DNA from: Acidimicrobiaceae bacterium
GTDB taxonomy: Bacteria > Actinomycetota > Acidimicrobiia > Acidimicrobiales > Poriferisodalaceae
Assembly: GCA_905182565.1 (NCBI GenBank)
Contig: CAJJCB010000024.1
Span: 1-64,000, forward strand
DNA length: 64,000 bases
Reading direction: 5' to 3'
Position numbers and translations under genes: made by a program. The notes beneath the pieces are model-generated. The model saw only the letters and a program-made list of their open reading frames with translations. It was not told the origin of the DNA and did no database searches. Of the stretch, positions 37,749 through 48,310 are shown piece by piece. Each line of letters starts with the position of its first letter. Positions within the stretch are counted from its first letter, which is position 1.

Positions 37749-38897
37749 TTAAAACGAACGATCCTCTGAATCAAGTCCGAGTAGTACTCTTCCTGCAGTA
37801 TCGATTTGGTAGCTTCCAACCGTGAAATGGCCGGCAACAGCTTTGATATCTGCAGCTAGCTGAGAGAGTGGTGATGTTTCAAAATTTGAACTACTGCCGG
37901 CAGCTAACGTAATGAGCTCAACTGCGGCTACAGAATTTTGCACGGACCACGAGCAAGCTAGCCGGGCTAAAGCATGTTGATCAGAAGTCACTTCAGATCC
38001 GGCTGCGACGCTGTCCCACAGATCATGGAGTGTCTCAGCAACCCATGCCTTTCCGGAGCGAACTAACGCCTCGGCCTTAGCGACAGCGGAAGCAGCGTCA
38101 GGTCGATTACGCAGCTCAAGTTTTGAGTTCAGAGGTTTTTTGGTACTGCAGAGTTTCTTGAATTCGTGAATCGCTCGAAATGCCAAACCAGTTGCGATGC
38201 CGGTTTTAGGAAAGGGAAATCTTAGCCCGGAAGGCAGTCGGTAGAACGGAGTTTCGGGAATAGGTAGAGAGTGATTGGCCACTACTCCAACGGAGTCAGA
38301 CGGAACAAAGTGATTATGAAGTACCACATCGTTGGACCCAGTGCCTCTAAGCCCAGACGTGAACCACGTTTTTTCTATTAAAGAATAATCTGCGGTAAGC
38401 AAAGCAAAACATAACTGAAGTGGAGATGAATCCTGGACGATGCTATTGAGTATCCATTTATCAGAAGAGGTGCACCCGCTCACAAAATTCCACCGCCCTG
38501 ACAATTCCCAGCCGCCCTCAACTTTTTGAGCTCTTCCATGAGGAACACCGGAACCGGCGATTACAACGTCAGGCTGACACGGCCATAAGTTTTTAAGGTT
38601 CTCCGGAGGTAAGTATGCCGCAGCGATACCAGCTTCCTCGTTGCAAGTCATTGCTACCCAGGCAGTCGAGCCATGAGAGAATGCCAGCGCCTCTGAGAAT
38701 TCGACAAGAACAGAAAGATGTTCTTCTCTCCCACCGTATTCTCTAGGCACCAATAGTTTCAAAAGATTACTCTCAGCAAGTTTTTTGATGACTTCTGGGT
38801 CTGGTTGGCGAAGCTGATCGGCAGCGCTAGCTTTGCTCTCCACCAGTTTCAGCATTGGTTTGAGCTCTTCTCTTATTGAACTGCACCCATCGGTCAT
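37749..38897 (-). CDS. Acyl-CoA dehydrogenase-like flavoprotein (HsaA/group D monooxygenase type)
   Basis: 382 residues. The acyl-CoA dehydrogenase fold is seen in NLLKLLVPREYGGREEHLSVLVEFSEALAFSHGSTAWVAM, GGWELSGRWNFVSGCTSSDKWIL and the FTSGLRGTGSNDVVLHNHFVP segment. The last is common to the HsaA / p-hydroxyphenylacetate-monooxygenase-like branch that uses reduced flavin and oxygen rather than CoA substrates. The typical catalytic glutamate motif is absent. It diverges from the first gene of the nine-gene array at 38951 across 53 bases and may act on the same substrate. A flavin reductase is not adjacent. Confidence 0.78.
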   Translation of the reverse strand: MTDGCSSIREELKPMLKLVESKASAADQLRQPDPEVIKKLAESNLLKLLVPREYGGREEHLSVLVEFSEALAFSHGSTAWVAMTCNEEAGIAAAYLPPENLKNLWPCQPDVVIAGSGVPHGRAQKVEGGWELSGRWNFVSGCTSSDKWILNSIVQDSSPLQLCFALLTADYSLIEKTWFTSGLRGTGSNDVVLHNHFVPSDSVGVVANHSLPIPETPFYRLPSGLRFPFPKTGIATGLAFRAIHEFKKLCSTKKPLNSKLELRNRPDAASAVAKAEALVRSGKAWVAETLHDLWDSVAAGSEVTSDQHALARLACSWSVQNSVAAVELITLAAGSSSNFETSPLSQLAADIKAVAGHFTVGSYQIDTAGRVLLGLDSEDRSF

Positions 38898-38950: not shown

Positions 38951-41425
38951 ATGAAACGAGCAAACTCAAGCAAGCTAATGGAAGATATTTCTGCGGCGTT
39001 ACCACTCGATGGAATGCGCGTTTTAGACCTCACTGATGAACGTGGAGAACTAGGCCCCTGGATGCTTGGAGAGCTAGGCGCAGACGTAATAAAAGTTGAA
39101 CCTGTCGGAGGTGCTAGAAGCCGAGGCGCCTTGCCATTGCAAAAAGACGACGAGTCGGACCTTCGAAGCTTACAATTTTGCGCCTACAACTCGAACAAAC
39201 GGTCAATCGTGATTGATCTAAATGCGCATAGCGGCCGGCTTTTAATGGAGGATCTTATAGAGACTGCTGATTTTATTTTTGAATCTGATACCCCAGGGCT
39301 GCTTGCTCAAGCAGGGATTTCTAGTGAAGACATTTTAGAAAAAAACCAGAAACTAGTCCACGTGTTGATAACTCCATTCGGTGAGTCTGGGCCTCGTGTC
39401 GGTGATCCGTGTTCAGAACTTACCCTGGCTGCCCTAGGCGGGCCAGCAAACGTGCAGGGTGTACCTGACCGTCCACCTGTCAAAGCCACAATTCCCCAAG
39501 TTTGGAGACATGCAGGAGCGGAAGCTGCAGTGGCAGCTTTGGTTAGCCACAGGAGAATGCTGACAACCGGAGCAGGGCAAAAAGTAGTTGTTTCTGCTCA
39601 GGCTGTAATGACGTGGACTTTACTCAACGCAATGGAAGCCTATGAAATTCAAGGAAAAGATATTCACCGCACAGGAACAGAAGTTCGGCTGGCGATTCCC
39701 CTGCAGCTTCGTGTTCCCACTCTCGACGGTTGGTTAATAGCCATATGTCGAGGCGAGTTGATTGAATCGTTGCTTCCCTGGCTGATAGTGGAAGGCATCG
39801 TTGATGAAAGCTGGAGACATGAAGACTGGATGACATTCGATAATCGTGTGCTTAACGGCGAACCTGCTGAACACACTTTCGAAGATCTTTACAATGCAGT
39901 GGCAAGCCTGTGTAAGCGCTACCCGAAAGACACCTTGATGCGCAGCGCATTGAAATTAGGCGCCACCTTAGCCCCGATCAATGATGCTGAAGATCTAATG
40001 AATTTCGATCACCTAGCTATCAGAAAATTTTGGGTTGATTCCGAAACGGGCAGAGGTTTGGATAATGTGAAGTTGCCTGGCGGTTATGTTTCCTTTGACA
40101 ACGAACGGGTGAAAGCGAACCGAAAGCCGCCACATGTCAACGAACATTCAAAAGAGATACGAGATGAGCTGGCTGCTCACTCGACCTTTCCTCAAGATCG
40201 TGAAATCCCCAAGTCGGTCTTGCCTTTAGAAGGACTAAAAGTAGCTGATTTCGCATGGGTTGGGGTAGGACCGATAACTGCTAAAGCGCTTGCGGACCAT
40301 GGAGCAACCGTAGTCAGAGTTGAATCAAGTTCTCGTATAGACCCGTTGAGATTAAACCCACCTTTTAAAGACAATATTAACGATGAGAACATGTCTCATT
40401 TCTTCGGAACCTTCAACACTTCGAAACTGGGTATCGACATCGATATGAAAAACCCAAGTGGGTTGGAGGTTGCGAAGAGTCTTGTGGAATGGGCCGATGT
40501 AGTCATAGAATCCTGGAGTCCTGGAGCGTTTGGTCGAACGGGTCTAGATGATGAAACAATTAGAGCCTTGAACCCAGACGTAATAATTGTTCACACATCG
40601 TTGCTTTCGACTGGGGGCCCCTTGTCGCCCTTGGCGGGCTATGGGTATCATGCCGCTGCAATAGCTGGGTTCTATGAAGTGTTTGGCTGGTCTGATCTTC
40701 CACCAGATGGGCCATATCTTGCATATACCGACACGATCGCTCCTCGTTTTCTAACTCCTGCAGTGCTTGCTGCTATTGACCGACTTGAACGAACTGGCAA
40801 AGGTTGCACAATTGATGCGGCTCAGCTTGAATGCGGCCTGCAACTACTAGCTCCAGAACTTTTGGCGTACCAAGTATCGGGTGAAAAACCGATGCGCTCA
40901 GGTAACAGAGACCCCCAAAATGTTCCTCAAGGCGTGTATCCAGTCGATGGCGAAGATCGATGGATAGCAATCACTATTGAAGATGATGCTAATTGGTCTG
41001 ACCTATGTCGGTTGATGAACAAACCCGATTGGGCAGAAGATCACTCGCTGCGTACCAGAGAGGGAAGATACGGCGCGCACGATCAAATAGATAACGAAAT
41101 AGCTACATGGACCAGAGCCGCCGATGGTAAGCAACTGGAGTCAACCTTATTGGAAGCTGGTATTCCAGCAGGTTTAGTGCAACGTAGTAGCGACCTGCTT
41201 GTCGACAAGCAGTATGAGCATATGAAGTTCTACAGAAGGCACGTTCATGGAGCTATGGGAGAAGTGCCGTATGCAGGCCATCAGTACATGATTGACAAAT
41301 ATGATCACGGGCCGTTAAGCGCGTCACCATTGCTTGGTGAGCATACTTTTGAAATTCTTGCTGACCACTTAAAGCTAACGTCAGATGAAATAGCTGATAT
41401 TGCAGTTAGCGGTGCGCTGGGATGA
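38951..41425 (+). CDS. Tandem-domain class III CoA-transferase A
   Basis: 824 residues from the ATG at 38951, two fused CaiB/BaiF domains. Domain 1 starts LDGMRVLDLTDERGELGPWMLGELGADVIKVEP; domain 2 starts near residue 423 with LEGLKVADFAWVGVGPITAKALADHGATVVRVE. The catalytic aspartate is present only in domain 2 (D594 in AYTDTIAPR); the equivalent of domain 1 reads TIPQVWRHAG with no aspartate. The DMSP CoA-transferase/lyase DddD has the same two-domain architecture, but so do many uncharacterised actinobacterial proteins. First gene of a nine-gene array; its TGA overlaps the next ATG (ATGA). A paralogue is at 43590. Confidence 0.88.
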   Translation: MKRANSSKLMEDISAALPLDGMRVLDLTDERGELGPWMLGELGADVIKVEPVGGARSRGALPLQKDDESDLRSLQFCAYNSNKRSIVIDLNAHSGRLLMEDLIETADFIFESDTPGLLAQAGISSEDILEKNQKLVHVLITPFGESGPRVGDPCSELTLAALGGPANVQGVPDRPPVKATIPQVWRHAGAEAAVAALVSHRRMLTTGAGQKVVVSAQAVMTWTLLNAMEAYEIQGKDIHRTGTEVRLAIPLQLRVPTLDGWLIAICRGELIESLLPWLIVEGIVDESWRHEDWMTFDNRVLNGEPAEHTFEDLYNAVASLCKRYPKDTLMRSALKLGATLAPINDAEDLMNFDHLAIRKFWVDSETGRGLDNVKLPGGYVSFDNERVKANRKPPHVNEHSKEIRDELAAHSTFPQDREIPKSVLPLEGLKVADFAWVGVGPITAKALADHGATVVRVESSSRIDPLRLNPPFKDNINDENMSHFFGTFNTSKLGIDIDMKNPSGLEVAKSLVEWADVVIESWSPGAFGRTGLDDETIRALNPDVIIVHTSLLSTGGPLSPLAGYGYHAAAIAGFYEVFGWSDLPPDGPYLAYTDTIAPRFLTPAVLAAIDRLERTGKGCTIDAAQLECGLQLLAPELLAYQVSGEKPMRSGNRDPQNVPQGVYPVDGEDRWIAITIEDDANWSDLCRLMNKPDWAEDHSLRTREGRYGAHDQIDNEIATWTRAADGKQLESTLLEAGIPAGLVQRSSDLLVDKQYEHMKFYRRHVHGAMGEVPYAGHQYMIDKYDHGPLSASPLLGEHTFEILADHLKLTSDEIADIAVSGALG

Positions 41426-41925
41426 GAGAACCTACGTTTCTCGACCTGGTTAGGGCGGCAGAAGGTCTGGCAGGCCTATTGCGTAAAGCAAATCAAAAAA
41501 TAGCAGTTTCAGAATCTGCATCTGGCGGGCTTATAAACGCAGCTTTAGTCGGAGTTGATGGTGCCAGCGATTTTTATGTTGGCGGGATGATTGTGTACAC
41601 CTCAGTCGGAAGAAAAATTTTATCTCAGGATCAACCGACTCCCCGAGGCATGAGAGGAGCTACAGAACTGTTCGCGCTTTATCAAGCGGAACGGGCGAGC
41701 GAGATTTACGAGGCCACTTGGGGGATCGGGGAAACTGGCGCTACCGGGCCACAAGGCAATCCTTATGGAGATCCTCCAGGTCATGGGTGGGTCGCTTGTG
41801 TAGGGCCAGTGCGCAAAGTTCAGAAGCTTTCGATACCGGATAATTTGCGAGTAGTTAACATGCACAAGTTTGCGTTAGCGGCAATTGAGCTTGCTAGCCA
41901 GACGGTAAAGACAGCGACCGAATGA
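41422..41925 (+). CDS. CinA-like (nicotinamide-nucleotide amidase domain) protein
   Basis: 167 residues, the C-terminal CinA/PncC-type domain alone. Core motifs are recognisable but altered: AVSESASGGLINAALVGV where classic PncC has AESCTGG, VGGMIVYTSVGRKIL where it has Y-S-N-x-x-K, and GETGATGPQGNPYG where it has TGIAGPGG. True PncC deamidates NMN. The changes and the location inside a CoA-transferase operon suggest another amidase, lactamase or hydrolase role. It overlaps both neighbours by four bases (ATGA), so its product is made in step with them. Confidence 0.75.
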   Translation: MREPTFLDLVRAAEGLAGLLRKANQKIAVSESASGGLINAALVGVDGASDFYVGGMIVYTSVGRKILSQDQPTPRGMRGATELFALYQAERASEIYEATWGIGETGATGPQGNPYGDPPGHGWVACVGPVRKVQKLSIPDNLRVVNMHKFALAAIELASQTVKTATE

Positions 41926-42560
41926 ATTCTGTTAATGGCAGTAATCGCTACAGCAATTTTCCTGTCGACTTTTTTGCCCGTGCTGATGATGGCTTAGATG
42001 CTACTTTTTACAGCTCGCCACGATTCGTTGCTCACATTGACGAAGCTGCAATTACATGCATCGGCAAGCTATATGAGGAACTAGAGATAAGCGGCGCAGT
42101 GCTTGATCTCATGAGCTCTTGGATCAGTCACTTCACGACAACGCCAAAAGAACTAGTTGCACTCGGAATGAATGAACAAGAGTTGCAGCAGAATCCCGCA
42201 GCGGCTTCATGGGTGCAACAGGATCTCAACGTAAACACAGTTTTACCTTTTGCCGATTCATCTTTTGACGCTGTCGTTTGCTGCGTGTCGGTTGACTATC
42301 TAACTAAACCACTTGAAGTCTTCGACGAGGTGCATCGGGTTCTTCGTCCAGGAGGCAAGTTTGTTAATACCTTTTCGAACAGATGCTTCCCCACCAAAGC
42401 CATTAATGGTTGGTCTCGGACTGATGATGAAGGCCACGCAACGATCGTTGGAGAGTATTATCGCTTGACAGGGCCCTGGGAGAACCTTCAGGCCCAGAGA
42501 AGAACCCAGTCTGGTCATCAAGGAGATCCGGTTTATGCTCTTTGGGCCGACGCAACATGA
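41922..42560 (+). CDS. SAM-dependent methyltransferase-fold protein with atypical motif I
   Basis: 212 residues. The class I methyltransferase fold is shown by LPFADSSFDAVVCCVSVDYLTKPLEVFDEVHRVLRPGGKFVNTFSNR (motifs III-V). The usual SAM-binding GxGxG loop is replaced by VLDLMSSWISHF, and ELVALGMNEQELQQNP follows. This variant occurs in a conserved bacterial family with no proven reaction, so it is doubtful whether SAM is used in the usual way. It overlaps the CinA-like gene by four bases and is followed after 23 bases by the luciferase-like gene. Confidence 0.75.
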   Translation: MNSVNGSNRYSNFPVDFFARADDGLDATFYSSPRFVAHIDEAAITCIGKLYEELEISGAVLDLMSSWISHFTTTPKELVALGMNEQELQQNPAAASWVQQDLNVNTVLPFADSSFDAVVCCVSVDYLTKPLEVFDEVHRVLRPGGKFVNTFSNRCFPTKAINGWSRTDDEGHATIVGEYYRLTGPWENLQAQRRTQSGHQGDPVYALWADAT

Positions 42561-42583
42561 TTAACCAGGTCTAGCTTATTAAT

Positions 42584-43585
42584 ATGACGTTACTCCCTCT
42601 ATCTGTTCTTGACCTTGCCACAGTCGCGAGCGATGCGAGTAGCGCTCAAGCATTGAGTGAGGCCACGACTACAGCCCAAATAGCTGAAGAACTGGGCTAT
42701 AAACGGTTCTGGGTCGCTGAACATCACAATATGAATACAGTTGCAAGCACATCTCCGGCGGTTCTGATGGCCCATATTGCAGCCACAACTTCGAAAATAA
42801 AAGTTGGCTCAGGCGGAGTAATGCTGCCGAATCACGCTCCGTTAGTGATAGCCGAACAATTTGCGCTCTTAGAAGCGTTGCATCCCGGAAGAATAGATCT
42901 TGGCATCGGACGAGCTCCAGGAAGTGACCGCGAAACTATGATCGCTGTGAGGGGCTCAGCTGCAGCGATGTCGGTCGAAGATTTCCCGCGTGACCTGGTT
43001 GACGTTTTGGGTTTGCTGGGTGATGTGAGGAGCGAAGAAGGTCTGTGGAAGAAATTTGCAGCAACGCCATTAGCGGTTTCCTCACCGGACGTTCTCCTCC
43101 TTGGATCTAGTGGCTACAGCGCTCAATTAGCAGGAATATTAGGTCTCCCATTCGCGTTCGCTAACCATTTTGATACTGGAGGAACTCTTGAGGCAGCAAA
43201 GTTGTACCAACAAGCTTTTCGGCCATCCCCAATTCTTGAAGAACCCTACACAATCATTACAGCCGCAGCGATAGCAGCCTCAACACACGATGAAGCTGAG
43301 CGATTAGCTGCACCATCTCGTTTACGTAAATACGGTATGAGAACCGGAAGATTCTGGGCGCTCATGCCACCTGAAGAAGCATTGGCGCACCCAGAATGGG
43401 AACGAGCCAACGCAATGCCAAGTAACTCGCTGCTTGGTACGGCAGAAGATATAAAAAGCGGACTCATCGAGTTAGCAAAGGCTGCAGAGGCCTCAGAAGT
43501 TATGATTTACGGTGCTACCTACGGCGTAACGGAACGAATAAAAAGCCTTGAACTAATCGCTGACGCTTGGGATTTGGGTAAATAA
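42584..43585 (+). CDS. LLM-class flavin-dependent monooxygenase (group 1)
   Basis: 333 residues. LSVLDLATVASDASSAQALSEATTTAQIAEELGYKRFWVAEHHNMNTVASTSPAVLMAHIAATTSKIKVGSGGVMLPNHAPLVIAEQFALLEALHPGRIDLGIGRAPGS is the signature of luciferase family oxidoreductase group 1, a TIM-barrel flavin or F420 enzyme. It is shorter than, and distinct from, DMS monooxygenase DmoA of the NtaA/SnaA branch. It would oxidise an unknown substrate with reduced flavin and oxygen. It is followed after four bases by the second tandem CoA-transferase. Confidence 0.85.
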   Translation: MTLLPLSVLDLATVASDASSAQALSEATTTAQIAEELGYKRFWVAEHHNMNTVASTSPAVLMAHIAATTSKIKVGSGGVMLPNHAPLVIAEQFALLEALHPGRIDLGIGRAPGSDRETMIAVRGSAAAMSVEDFPRDLVDVLGLLGDVRSEEGLWKKFAATPLAVSSPDVLLLGSSGYSAQLAGILGLPFAFANHFDTGGTLEAAKLYQQAFRPSPILEEPYTIITAAAIAASTHDEAERLAAPSRLRKYGMRTGRFWALMPPEEALAHPEWERANAMPSNSLLGTAEDIKSGLIELAKAAEASEVMIYGATYGVTERIKSLELIADAWDLGK

Positions 43586-43589
43586 AAAA

Positions 43590-46001
43590 GTGACTGCTCT
43601 ATTGGCTAAATATCGGGTATTGGATTTAACCGATGCCAGGGGCGCGTTCACAGGTTCGCTTTTGGCTCAGTTGGGAGCAGAGGTGATATTAGTTGAGCCA
43701 CCAACCGGCAATAATATCCGCAAGACCGAACCATATGCTGAAGATAAGCGAGACCTCGATAATTCTCTAGTCCATCATTCTTTTAGCCGAGGCAAAGCTT
43801 CGGTTATGCTCGACCCGGATAATTCGAAGGATAAAAAAAAGTTCCTAGATTTAGCGTCTTCTGCAGATGTAATTCTTCGTTCAGGTAGACCATCAGAGAT
43901 AGACACTCTCGGCTACCCCTCGACCAGTGAACTCGAAGACATGTTCCCTCATTTGGTGCAAGCGACTGTTAGCCCCTTCGGGTTAACAGGCCCCAAGGCT
44001 GAATGGCTTGATTCAGATCTGGTTCTCGCAGCAGCTGGTGTGCAGATGTCTATCAATGGAGACGCTGACGCTCCGCCATTGCGAACCGCTGTGCCTCAGG
44101 TCTGGTCTCATGCATGCGCAGATGCAGCAATTGGAGTAGCGGTTGCATTAAGAGAACGTTCTCATTCTCAATTAGGTCAACGAGTCGACGTTTCAGCGCA
44201 ACAGTCATGGACCTACGCAGCCTTCCACTACCCGCTCTTCCCTAGCTGGGGAGCTGAAGAGGTTACTCGGAACGGTAGCCATGTCCGTATTGGGGAAGTC
44301 GCGTCGACTTTCCACTTTCCGGCTAAAGATGGAACCGTAACTCTGACCTATCTATTTGGAGCTGCAGTTGGACCTTTTACAAACCGCTTTGTTGAATGGA
44401 TGGTTGACGAAGGTGCGATAGACCCAGCATTCCAAAGCATCGATTATTCAACTTGGTCTCCTGTCGATGACCTTGACCACTACGAAAAGTTAACAAAAGC
44501 TATTTACTATTTCTGCGAATCAAAAACAAAGGCTGAATTGTTGGAGGCAGCCAAGCAAAGACGACTTTTAGTGATGCCAGTCTCAACTTTAAGCGAAGTG
44601 ATTTCTAACACACAATTCGAAGAACGAGGTTTATGGGAGTCAGTTCAGATTGGCGAGTCATCAGCAAAACTACCAGGCCCTTTTGTTCATGCGATACCGA
44701 GGTTACCTTCCTTAGGTAGTGCTCCAAAGATCGGCGAAAACCAAGCGCTCCTCCAAAATTTAGAACCTAAGTCTTTCATAGCTGACACTCAATCAAAACC
44801 ATTTAAGCGTCCGCTGGATGGTGTGAAAGTTTTAGATATGACTATTTCTTTCGCTGGACCGACTGTGGGCAGAACACTCGCAGACCATGGCGCAACGGTA
44901 ATCAAAGTCGAGTCAGAGCACCGTCCCGACTTAACAAGAACTGCCGGCGTTTTTCTCAATGGCGATGGTGTGGACAACTCTGCCTGTTTCGCTGAGTACA
45001 ACGCCGGAAAAAAAAGTATTGCCTTAGACCTTTCCAAAAAAGAAAGTTCTATTCCGATTTTGCATGAGCTCGTGAAGTGGGCAGACGTTCTGATCGAAAG
45101 TTTCGCTCCAGGTTCATTAGGCCGATTGGGGCTTGATTCGAAAGCGAGAAAAAATCTAAATCCGAATTTAGTAACTCTTCAGTCAACCATGGTCGGACAG
45201 ACAGGCCCCTTTAGCTCTTTTCCTGGATATGGGAACATGGCAGCGGCGTTATGTGGCTTTTTCGCAACCACCGGTTGGCCCGGCCGACTTAGAGTCGGAC
45301 CGGTTGGAGCCTACACAGACATTATTTCTCCACGTTTTGCTGTACTAGCGGTTCTGTCAGCGTTAGACCATTTGGAAGCCACTGGTAATCCAACTGATTT
45401 TGATTTCGGACAAGGGGAGTCAGCTATCCAACTGCTAAATGTTGGGCTTCTTGATTCGCAAATTAACGGACGGCAATGGGAAGGGATAGGTAACGCAGAC
45501 CATTTCCTAGCCCCTCACGGTGTTTACCCATGCAGTGAAGAAGACACCTGGGTCGCTGTCAGCTGTTCCAACGACGAGCAGTGGGAACTGCTTTCGTCGT
45601 ATTTGAAAATTAATTCCCTAAAGAAACTGAGCGTCAGTGATCGATTGATGCGTCAGAAAGAAATCAATGCAGCTATAGAAGCATGGACCACCCAGAGGTC
45701 CAGTAAGGATGCGGCAGAGACGCTTCAGCAACTTGGGGTAGCGGCTCACCAAGTCCAGGGGGGCAAAGAATGTGCTTCGGACGAGCAGCTCAGACACCGA
45801 AATTGGACCGTAAACGTTGATCATGAACTCATGGGATCAATACCAGTGAGAAACAGCGCTATACATCTGTCTCGAACTCCGGCATTGATATCGGAACCAG
45901 GCCCTAGGATCGGTCAACACACTTTCGAGATCTTACTGAATAATTTAAACAAGAATCCTGATCAGATCGCGGAGCTCGCGATAAAGGAAATATTTGAATG
46001 A
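43590..46001 (+). CDS. Tandem-domain class III CoA-transferase B
   Basis: 803 residues with a GTG start, paralogous to the protein at 38951. Domain 1 opens KYRVLDLTDARGAFTGSLLAQLGAEVILVEP; domain 2 begins near residue 405 with LDGVKVLDMTISFAGPTVGRTLADHGATVIKVE. As in its paralogue, the nucleophilic aspartate is present only in domain 2 (D577 in AYTDIISPR), while domain 1 has AVPQVWSHACAD. The two proteins may form one heteromer or act on successive substrates. The stop overlaps the start of the molybdoenzyme by four bases (ATGA). Confidence 0.88.
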   Translation: MTALLAKYRVLDLTDARGAFTGSLLAQLGAEVILVEPPTGNNIRKTEPYAEDKRDLDNSLVHHSFSRGKASVMLDPDNSKDKKKFLDLASSADVILRSGRPSEIDTLGYPSTSELEDMFPHLVQATVSPFGLTGPKAEWLDSDLVLAAAGVQMSINGDADAPPLRTAVPQVWSHACADAAIGVAVALRERSHSQLGQRVDVSAQQSWTYAAFHYPLFPSWGAEEVTRNGSHVRIGEVASTFHFPAKDGTVTLTYLFGAAVGPFTNRFVEWMVDEGAIDPAFQSIDYSTWSPVDDLDHYEKLTKAIYYFCESKTKAELLEAAKQRRLLVMPVSTLSEVISNTQFEERGLWESVQIGESSAKLPGPFVHAIPRLPSLGSAPKIGENQALLQNLEPKSFIADTQSKPFKRPLDGVKVLDMTISFAGPTVGRTLADHGATVIKVESEHRPDLTRTAGVFLNGDGVDNSACFAEYNAGKKSIALDLSKKESSIPILHELVKWADVLIESFAPGSLGRLGLDSKARKNLNPNLVTLQSTMVGQTGPFSSFPGYGNMAAALCGFFATTGWPGRLRVGPVGAYTDIISPRFAVLAVLSALDHLEATGNPTDFDFGQGESAIQLLNVGLLDSQINGRQWEGIGNADHFLAPHGVYPCSEEDTWVAVSCSNDEQWELLSSYLKINSLKKLSVSDRLMRQKEINAAIEAWTTQRSSKDAAETLQQLGVAAHQVQGGKECASDEQLRHRNWTVNVDHELMGSIPVRNSAIHLSRTPALISEPGPRIGQHTFEILLNNLNKNPDQIAELAIKEIFE

Positions 46002-48310
46002 GTGAGATTCAGACGACAACTACAGGAACTCATTTCGGGACTTACGAAATCGATAGCAGGGATGGAGACATTGTTGAAGTTCGTGGTCAGGGATTAGACC
46101 CTGACCCGTCGCCTATCGGACAGGCTTTCCGTGCCCGCAAAAGCTTACGAGTTGAACGCCCGGCAGTCAGACTCTCTTGGTTAACAAATGGACCAGGGTC
46201 CAACAATAACCTCAGGGGCTCGGATCCTTTTGTGGAGGTCAGCTGGGAAAAAGTTTTCGAACTCGTAGCAGCCGAGTTGGAACGGGTACGAGACAAGCAT
46301 GGAAACAACTCGATTTTTGCGGGTTCCTATGGTTGGGGTTCTTCAGGTAGGGTCCACGCTCCTCTCGCTTTATTGTCTAGATTTTTGCGAATGTTTGGTG
46401 GTTATACGGATACGAAAGGTACGTATTCGTCGTCTGCGGCCGAAACAGTTGTTCCATATTTTCTTGGAATGGGATACCACGAGGCAATAGGAAAAGGAAC
46501 CTCATGGTCAGTTATTGCTGAACATACCGATCTCTTTGTAAGTTTTGGTGGCTTGAGGCTCAGCAATACTGAAGTCACTTATGGAGGTCAAGGAACTCAC
46601 CACACCCGTGACTGGATGAGGACTGCTATCGAGCAAGAAACTGAGTTCTTAAATATCGGTCCGCTAAAAGATGATGTAGCCGAAGAATTCAAATCTCGTT
46701 GGCAACCTATTCGCCCGGGCACCGATGTGGCTCTTATGGCTGCGTTAGTCCATACGTTGATAACTGAAGAAAAAACTGACACGCAATTTCTAGAAACGTA
46801 TTGCCATGGGTGGGAAATTTTCGAAGAATATATTCTTGGCGGTTCTGACGGCGTTGCCAAAGACGCAGCCTGGGCGAGTGCCATAACCGCAATCCCTGAG
46901 CAGGAAATAAAAAACCTTGCTACAGAAATGTCTGAGAAACGGACGCTAATAAACTTAACTTTGTCCGTTCAGCGCGCTGATCACGGAGAGCAGAGCTATT
47001 GGATGGCGATGGCTTTGGCCTGTGCTTTAGGCCAAGTGGGTTTGCCGGGAGGGGGTCTCGCTTTTCCATTTGGAACCCAAGGCAATGTTGGATCTGGACA
47101 AGTTCGAAAACGCGTTGCTGGCATGCCGCTTCCTCCAAAACCTAAGAATGGCACTGTCATCTCGGTTTCGCGAGTAAGCGAACTTCTAGAAGGCGCCGGA
47201 GCTACTCACCGATGGAATGGCACTGAGTTTACGTTGCCCGATATCCGTTTAGTGTGGTGGGCAGGTGGCAATCCTTTTCATCATCATCAAGATTTAAACC
47301 GATTGCAAAAAGCTTGGGAAAAACCAGACACAATTATTATCCAAGAACCATTCTGGACAGCCACAGCGCGTCGAGCGGATATTGTGCTGCCATCGAGCTT
47401 GTCGTTAGAGCGAAATGATATCGGGGGAGCGGAAACTCAACTAGTAGCTCACCAAAAAATGGCTAACCCCCCTGGAGAAGCGCTTGATGATTATGAGATA
47501 TTTGTTCGGCTAGCGAAAATCCTTCAATTTGGCGATCAGTACAGCGAAGGACGAAACGGCGATGAATGGGTTGAGACTGTCTATGAAATTTTTCGCGCCG
47601 ATAATACCTGGGCTCCTGCCTATGAGGAATTCAGAAAAATGCGATATCTCCAGTATCCAGATATGCCTGGCATGGGTGAGAAGGAGCAAGTGTTTCTCTC
47701 TGAGTTCCGCAGAGAACCTTTGTTGAATCCACTACGAACGCCCAGTGGGAAAATTGAAATTTTTTCAGAGCAGGTGGCGGCATTTGAATATCTCGAGTGT
47801 CCCGGACACCCAACGTGGATTGAACCCTTTGAGCGAGTTGGAGGTGCCGGGTCTGATAAGCACCCGCTTCATCTAATTTCTAACCAACCGCAATCGAGGT
47901 TGCATAGCCAATTTGACCATGCCGAGCCAAGCCAAGCGACTAAAGTTGCTGGTCGAGAGCCGGTTCGGCTTCATCCATCGACAGCTGCCGACCGGGATAT
48001 AAAAAACGGTGATGTAGTCCGGATTTTCAATGATCGAGGTGCATGTTTGGCGGGAGCTGTTCTAGATAATTCGTTAATGCCCGAAGTCATTCAACTTTCG
48101 ACTGGCGCCTGGTACGACCCAGACGAAGATGGAACTTGTCGTGCCGGTAATCCTAACGTTTTGACTCGCGACAAGGGAACTTCAGAACTCGCTCAGGGCC
48201 CGTCTGCACACACCTGCCTCGTGGACGTCGAATTGTTAGCTGGCGATGCACCCACGGTGGAGGTCTATAAGATGCCTTCGTTTACTGAAATACCTAAAGA
48301 CTTGATATGA
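45998..48310 (+). CDS. DMSO/TMAO/biotin-sulfoxide reductase-family molybdoenzyme
   Basis: 770 residues. GSYGWGSSGRVHAPLALLSRFL and the following GTYSSSAAETVVPYFLGM align by eye with DMSO reductase, putting S144 as the molybdenum ligand (serine class). QGNVGSGQVRKR, WAGGNPFHHHQDLNRLQKAW, ARRADIVLPSSLSLERNDIGG and the C-terminal LHLISNQPQSRLHSQFDH / VRIFNDRGACLAGAVL are bis-MGD-binding segments. There is no N-terminal cysteine cluster and no Tat signal, so it is cytoplasmic like BisC. Likely substrates are S- or N-oxides, used as a reductase, or in reverse as a hydroxylase. It overlaps both neighbours by four bases. Confidence 0.9.
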   Translation: MSEIQTTTTGTHFGTYEIDSRDGDIVEVRGQGLDPDPSPIGQAFRARKSLRVERPAVRLSWLTNGPGSNNNLRGSDPFVEVSWEKVFELVAAELERVRDKHGNNSIFAGSYGWGSSGRVHAPLALLSRFLRMFGGYTDTKGTYSSSAAETVVPYFLGMGYHEAIGKGTSWSVIAEHTDLFVSFGGLRLSNTEVTYGGQGTHHTRDWMRTAIEQETEFLNIGPLKDDVAEEFKSRWQPIRPGTDVALMAALVHTLITEEKTDTQFLETYCHGWEIFEEYILGGSDGVAKDAAWASAITAIPEQEIKNLATEMSEKRTLINLTLSVQRADHGEQSYWMAMALACALGQVGLPGGGLAFPFGTQGNVGSGQVRKRVAGMPLPPKPKNGTVISVSRVSELLEGAGATHRWNGTEFTLPDIRLVWWAGGNPFHHHQDLNRLQKAWEKPDTIIIQEPFWTATARRADIVLPSSLSLERNDIGGAETQLVAHQKMANPPGEALDDYEIFVRLAKILQFGDQYSEGRNGDEWVETVYEIFRADNTWAPAYEEFRKMRYLQYPDMPGMGEKEQVFLSEFRREPLLNPLRTPSGKIEIFSEQVAAFEYLECPGHPTWIEPFERVGGAGSDKHPLHLISNQPQSRLHSQFDHAEPSQATKVAGREPVRLHPSTAADRDIKNGDVVRIFNDRGACLAGAVLDNSLMPEVIQLSTGAWYDPDEDGTCRAGNPNVLTRDKGTSELAQGPSAHTCLVDVELLAGDAPTVEVYKMPSFTEIPKDLI

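Follow-up and report, generated by a model that had tools for sequence, protein, structure and literature searches.

Two proteins encoded in the window, the 64,000-nucleotide stretch of DNA that was analyzed, are most likely single-chain pseudo-heterodimeric class III CoA-transferases (CaiB/Frc family) of the BbsEF type, in which one half is catalytically dead and serves to complete its partner's active site; we put the probability of this reading at roughly 80%. Proteins A and B would each join the two subunits of such an enzyme head to tail, the inactive one (E) and the active one (F). The aspartate of the second half (D594 in A) would be the nucleophile that attacks the acyl-CoA donor, giving an aspartyl-CoA thioester, followed by transfer to the acceptor carboxylate. 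The first half would have lost its aspartate long before the A and B paralogues arose, with a Gln-x-aromatic motif in its place. Class III CoA-transferases form interlocked dimers (PMC9813914). In these dimers each active site sits where one protomer's Rossmann domain meets the small domain of its partner, and in A and B the dead half would give its small domain, and probably also the acceptor-side wall, to the single working site; the need for the partner's small domain would explain why the dead half is kept. We infer a composite site, an aromatic residue that fills the vacated position, and CoA transfer as the chemistry.

Domain organization and the catalytic position

A and B each consist of two full CoA-transferase family III domains, with no other recognizable part (Table 1). 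PF02515 matched A with 480 bits and B with 471 bits, in two stretches of each protein, and every half on its own exceeds the gathering score of the family. In A, the first half contains the motif PQVWRHA and the second half AYTDTIAPR, which includes D594. The tryptophan of PQVW lines up with the catalytic aspartate of Frc/YfdW in the phmmer alignment, and likewise with that of BbsF. At the position of Frc D169, an aspartate is found only in the second halves of A and B, and both first halves have a tryptophan. The domain alignments thus confirm the claim of an earlier, sequence-only reading that the nucleophilic aspartate is kept only in the second domain; that reading hinged on the lack of a first-domain aspartate in catalytic register, and no aspartate elsewhere in domain 1 of A or B aligns with this column.

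Table 1. Features of the locus encoding proteins A and B (positions in the window)
Feature	Position	Strand	Remarks
Acyl-CoA dehydrogenase/flavin monooxygenase-like protein	37749..38897	-	PF08028; divergent from A; conserved beside A
Protein A, fused E-F type class III CoA-transferase, 824 aa	38951..41425	+	ATG start; two PF02515 domains
A first half, BbsE-like, inactive, residues 1-405	38951..40165	+	W in catalytic column; Q183-V-W185 in place of catalytic loop
A second half, BbsF-like, active (predicted), residues 422-824	40214..41422	+	Nucleophile D594; BbsF D178 column
CinA C-terminal-domain (PncC-like) protein	41422..41925	+	PF02464; ATGA overlap with A stop; in conserved block
Small methyltransferase	41922..42560	+	PF08241; missing from block in other genera
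Luciferase-like flavin oxidoreductase (MsnO8 family)	42584..43585	+	TIGR03558 over cut-off; in conserved block
Protein B, second fused E-F type class III CoA-transferase, 803 aa	43590..46001	+	GTG start; two PF02515 domains
B first half, BbsE-like, inactive	43590..44765	+	PQVWSHA; W in catalytic column
B second half, BbsF-like, active (predicted)	44799..45998	+	AYTDIISPR; Asp codon 45318-45320; D in catalytic column
Molybdopterin S/N-oxide reductase-like protein (BisC family)	45998..48310	+	TIGR00509 839 bits, PF00384, below curated cut-offs; in conserved block

The closest solved relative of both proteins is BbsEF, the succinyl-CoA:(R)-benzylsuccinate CoA-transferase (PDB 9fn0, 9fol, 9fun), and the two halves match its two subunits separately. 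The best match of the first half of A is the BbsE chain (9fn0_A) and that of its second half the BbsF chain (9fn0_B). The first half of B matches 9fn0_A with an E-value of 5e-41, compared with 1e-8 for 9fn0_B, and its second half matches 9fn0_B with an E-value of 1e-51. A profile of the first halves scores 346 bits against BbsE and 157 against BbsF. The same assignment was obtained at the level of the fold: the nearest structure to the second half of A is a BbsF chain (9fol_D; Z 36.1, rmsd 1.9, 403 aligned residues), and the nearest to its first half, modeled separately, is a BbsE chain (9fol_A; Z 30.8, rmsd 5.0, 371 aligned residues), followed by other class III enzymes with Z scores of 24–29. 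As counted on the printed alignment numbering, BbsF D178, whose CoA adduct is named in the title of PDB entry 9fol, occupies the column of A D594, and Tyr171 of BbsE that of A W185. In both A and B, therefore, the E part lacks the aspartate, the F part has it, and each part is nearest to its own counterpart, which is the pattern by which the BbsEF type was recognized.

The division into a dead and a live half extends well beyond this locus. In a multiple alignment of the paralogues from the same genome, the aspartate is present in 0 of 18 first halves, in all 17 complete second halves and in all 22 single-domain paralogues examined. An alignment of 295 domains, which combined the own genome with related loci elsewhere, gave 106 of 109 second halves with the aspartate (the remaining three are masked or truncated sequences) and a single one among 108 first halves. 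The first halves have instead F (38), W (37), Y (16), M (6) or H (3), with eight others that include the one Asp and an alignment gap, so that an F, W or Y is found in 91 of 108. A glutamine two residues upstream of the catalytic column was present in 44 of 44 first halves, split E subunits included, with exceptions in the form of a His in one own-genome tandem and its frequent absence from more distant tandems; Q183 and D594 are invariant across the 56 tandem proteins of alignment A2. From these column counts and the conservation of the glutamine, Gln-x-aromatic is, at the level of sequence, the family-wide signature of the inactive half, and loss of the aspartate in one half is the rule for the family and not a peculiarity of the window locus. 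The question raised earlier, whether PQVWxHA is family-wide, is thus answered in part: the Gln-x-aromatic core is, and the exact motif is its local spelling. The same division is seen between separate genes in two gene pairs of the own genome, in which one partner has the aspartate; in the inactive partner the column holds F in one pair, and in the second pair L or I according to the alignment used.

A few tandem proteins deviate from this pattern. The first half encoded at L104:4915-7350 has an aspartate at the catalytic column (PQAD), a single base change away from the type of Tyr codon found in its nearest relative. This may be a reversion, which would leave both halves active, or an error in the sequence. 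Three tandem paralogues from related genomes contain in-frame stop codons (G006:C37:462818-465286, G007:C27:21900-24329 and G023:C451:3884-6352) and are possibly pseudogenes, or the match may run beyond the end of the gene.

In a midpoint-rooted tree of 125 domains with moderate individual support, BbsE and the split E subunits cluster with the dead halves, BbsF falls in a mirrored group with the live halves, and one tandem (C17:60939-62657) is an exception. Split E/F gene pairs come from Aromatoleum (L159) and from Binatota and Chloroflexota loci (listed as L055, L056, L107 and L159). Fused and split forms are mixed in the tree, so fusion or fission would have occurred more than once, and the two-gene state was accordingly treated as a feature of the characterized BbsEF and not as defining the lineage. 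Loss of the aspartate is best read as one ancient event that predates the split BbsE/BbsF enzymes. The argument that finding one replacement in A and B alike is informative in itself is not supported, as shared inheritance of this one loss is its best explanation.

Retention of the inactive half

The dead halves are under purifying selection and are not decaying, as indicated by dN/dS values between the window and a same-genus genome of 0.08 for the first half of A and 0.11 for that of B (0.16 and 0.09 for the respective second halves). Among orthologues, domain 1 is somewhat less conserved than domain 2, as would be seen if it were decaying after a recent loss of function, but its dN/dS values are similar to those of the live halves, its signature is conserved across phyla, and the loss of the aspartate is old. 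We therefore give recent decay next to no credence, and the earlier statement that domain 1 is not the product of random decay is borne out. The distances among E parts mirror those among F parts (48 pairs, r = 0.91; none of 5000 permutations exceeded 0.43), a correlation that owes part of its value to the common descent of the E and F parts. Purifying selection, the signature, this co-evolution and the likeness to BbsE together speak for a retained non-catalytic role of domain 1, as had been proposed.

If each chain has only one working site, conservation should be higher in the live than in the dead Rossmann domain and, conversely, higher in the dead than in the live small domain. Two groups were compared on this point, with domain limits mapped by homology: 16 orthologues of the A type and a distinct set of 54 tandem proteins. 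The live Rossmann domain is more conserved than the dead one in the two groups (p = 1e-6 and 0.004). For the small domains the order is reversed, the dead one being the more conserved, weakly in the A group (p = 0.049) and with p = 0.004 in the other; over all paralogues of alignment A2 this small-domain asymmetry nearly vanishes (1.84 bits for the N-terminal and 1.87 bits for the C-terminal small domain).

The AlphaFold2 model of full-length A has a pLDDT of 91.6 and a pTM of 0.93, with the two halves confidently placed relative to each other. When the first half was modeled alone, confidence dropped in loops 161–180 and 221–250 (block pLDDT of 46–63 compared with 78–92), a contrast that is suggestive only, as the two runs differ in alignment and length. 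By homology to Mct, these loops are the interlocking linker and the central loop. The conservation asymmetry and the structure models are consistent with one composite active site per chain, and the N-half of one molecule could alternatively pair with the C-half of another. A different role for domain 1, as a non-catalytic CoA or acyl-CoA binding site that regulates the enzyme or gates its substrate and does not complete it structurally, is in agreement with the fold and the many general CaiB residues (R58, K83, D107) kept in the dead half. We regard it as unlikely, since segments conserved in the live half are altered in the dead one (the WVxAGP region, which becomes DERG, the G563/G565 region and the catalytic loop) and since, of the two Rossmann domains, it is the dead one that is less conserved.

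Gene neighborhood and the relation of A to B

The genes from A to the BisC-family enzyme form one same-strand run with ends that overlap or nearly do so, the 3′ end of B overlapping the start of the molybdopterin oxidoreductase gene. The window's gene order from A through CinA, methyltransferase and LLM to B recurs in G001, a genome of the same genus, where an ORF with the N-terminal sequence of the methyltransferase is present. The nearest orthologues of A are from marine Acidimicrobiia metagenome-assembled genomes (MAGs). In five related acidimicrobiial MAGs the A locus comprises an MBL-fold protein, AcdH2, A, CinA, LLM and the Mo enzyme, and in a sixth only the upstream part is present before the contig ends; OAHS and a CoA-binding protein come after the block in four of the MAGs. 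The methyltransferase and B are missing from the A block of the five MAGs whose sequence extends far enough, which have no room for B. No bss- or bbs-like gene was recognized among the eight genes examined at the locus, and the window contains no Rfam match.

Among the related loci compared, B is present at this place only in the genus of the window. It is closest to other tandem paralogues of the genome (40–42% identity) and is 31–33% identical to A, so the description of the two as paralogous copies is loose. From the block that lacks B in related MAGs and from its greater similarity to other paralogues, B looks like a genus-level insertion into a conserved block, and the methyltransferase likewise interrupts this block only in the genus of the window. 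A wider search of the class with a strict E-value limit returned matches to B from its own genome only, and is weak evidence of absence with few candidates scored per genome.

By synteny and relatedness, A and B would be neither a duplicated pair nor a functional one. This bears on the suggestion that two copies in one operon form an obligate heteromer, with the dead halves as the interface between the two proteins. The compact gene run, found also in G001, is what favors such an arrangement, but five related MAGs keep A, CinA, LLM and the Mo enzyme with no space for B, the identity between A and B is lower than that of B to other paralogues, and each chain already contains both an E and an F part. 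Judged by synteny and relatedness, and given that A is conserved where B is lacking, an obligate A/B heteromer is very unlikely.

Genome setting and comparison with known systems

The own genome (2.65 Mb, 95.6% complete, 27 contigs) contains 73 CaiB/Frc-domain matches and some 18 tandem proteins, so that a single enzyme family is very strongly expanded. The plasmid matches H26 and H27, which are single-domain or unannotated, were left out of the analysis. A literature search for CaiB in Acidimicrobiia found no paper. Tentatively, and against the odds as we see them, the roughly 18 tandem proteins may have diversified into a system whose inactive halves, each with its Gln-x-aromatic plug and donated small domain, serve as evolvable acceptor-recognition modules, the dead-first layout having evolved at least twice. 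If this is true, one marine bacterium could activate many different carboxylates of dissolved organic matter; the prediction is that specificity depends in part on the dead half. The replacement of Asp by Gln-x-aromatic in any case offers a clear sequence rule for spotting the inactive partner in a very large and poorly annotated enzyme group, one that is strongly expanded in marine Acidimicrobiia.

Comparable CaiB expansions have been described in SAR202 Chloroflexota, some of the proteins being DddD-like (PMC5395668). They share with our genome the many CaiB paralogues of a marine oligotroph; the relatives here differ in being marine Acidimicrobiia, and dead and live halves do not feature in the passages considered.

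In the collection of related loci, an unannotated 862-aa tandem CaiB protein of Sinorhizobium fredii NGR234 (L173:7506-10094, pNGR234b) is probably the DddD of that strain; its neighboring ORFs look like those of a GMC-type oxidoreductase and a betaine-type ABC transporter. The tandem protein has Ser in the first half and Asp in the second at the catalytic column; the second-half aspartate of Marinomonas DddD is reportedly Asp602, in work by Alcolombri from 2014. A 677-aa tandem of the own genome (L033:2907-4937, that is, G000:C17:60939-62657) belongs to the same other lineage, with Ala in the first half and Asp in the second. The NGR234 candidate scores best with the single-domain profile and groups with this tandem inside the single-domain enzymes, outside the E and F groups (support 0.90, placement 0.73–0.80, with long branches). 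On the placement of this pair, the tandem layout with a dead first and a live second half seems to have at least two origins, the BbsEF type and the putative DddD type. The sequence-only reading had recommended alignment with DddD; the NGR234 candidate shows the dead/live pattern, on a branch separate from that of A and B.

The possibility that A and B are themselves DddD-type DMSP CoA-transferase/lyases has behind it the two-CaiB architecture that they share with DddD (PMC7174347) and the DddD-like best matches reported for SAR202 CaiB proteins (PMC5395668). With the NGR234 candidate falling outside the E and F groups and no recognizable DMSP-use gene among the neighbors examined, we consider it highly improbable. 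DddD, in its NGR234 candidate, resembles A and B as a tandem CaiB protein that lacks the aspartate in the first half and has it in the second, and differs in that its type seems to have come from a separate duplication, beyond the BbsE/BbsF-type groups.

The homodimeric class III CoA-transferases (Frc, YfdW, CaiB, SUGCT and Mct) have the fold, the catalytic aspartate and the interlocked pairing in common with A and B, and differ in being built of identical protomers that are both active. The closest parallel is BbsEF, which likewise has two CaiB-fold parts, one with the nucleophilic aspartate and one with an aromatic residue in its place, preceded in the inactive part by a glutamine two residues before. 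The two systems differ in that BbsEF is encoded by adjacent separate genes and A and B by single fused ORFs, at ∼30–34% identity. A and B are fused members of this known kind and of modest novelty, and the surprise that they hold is limited because BbsEF already embodies the biochemical principle.
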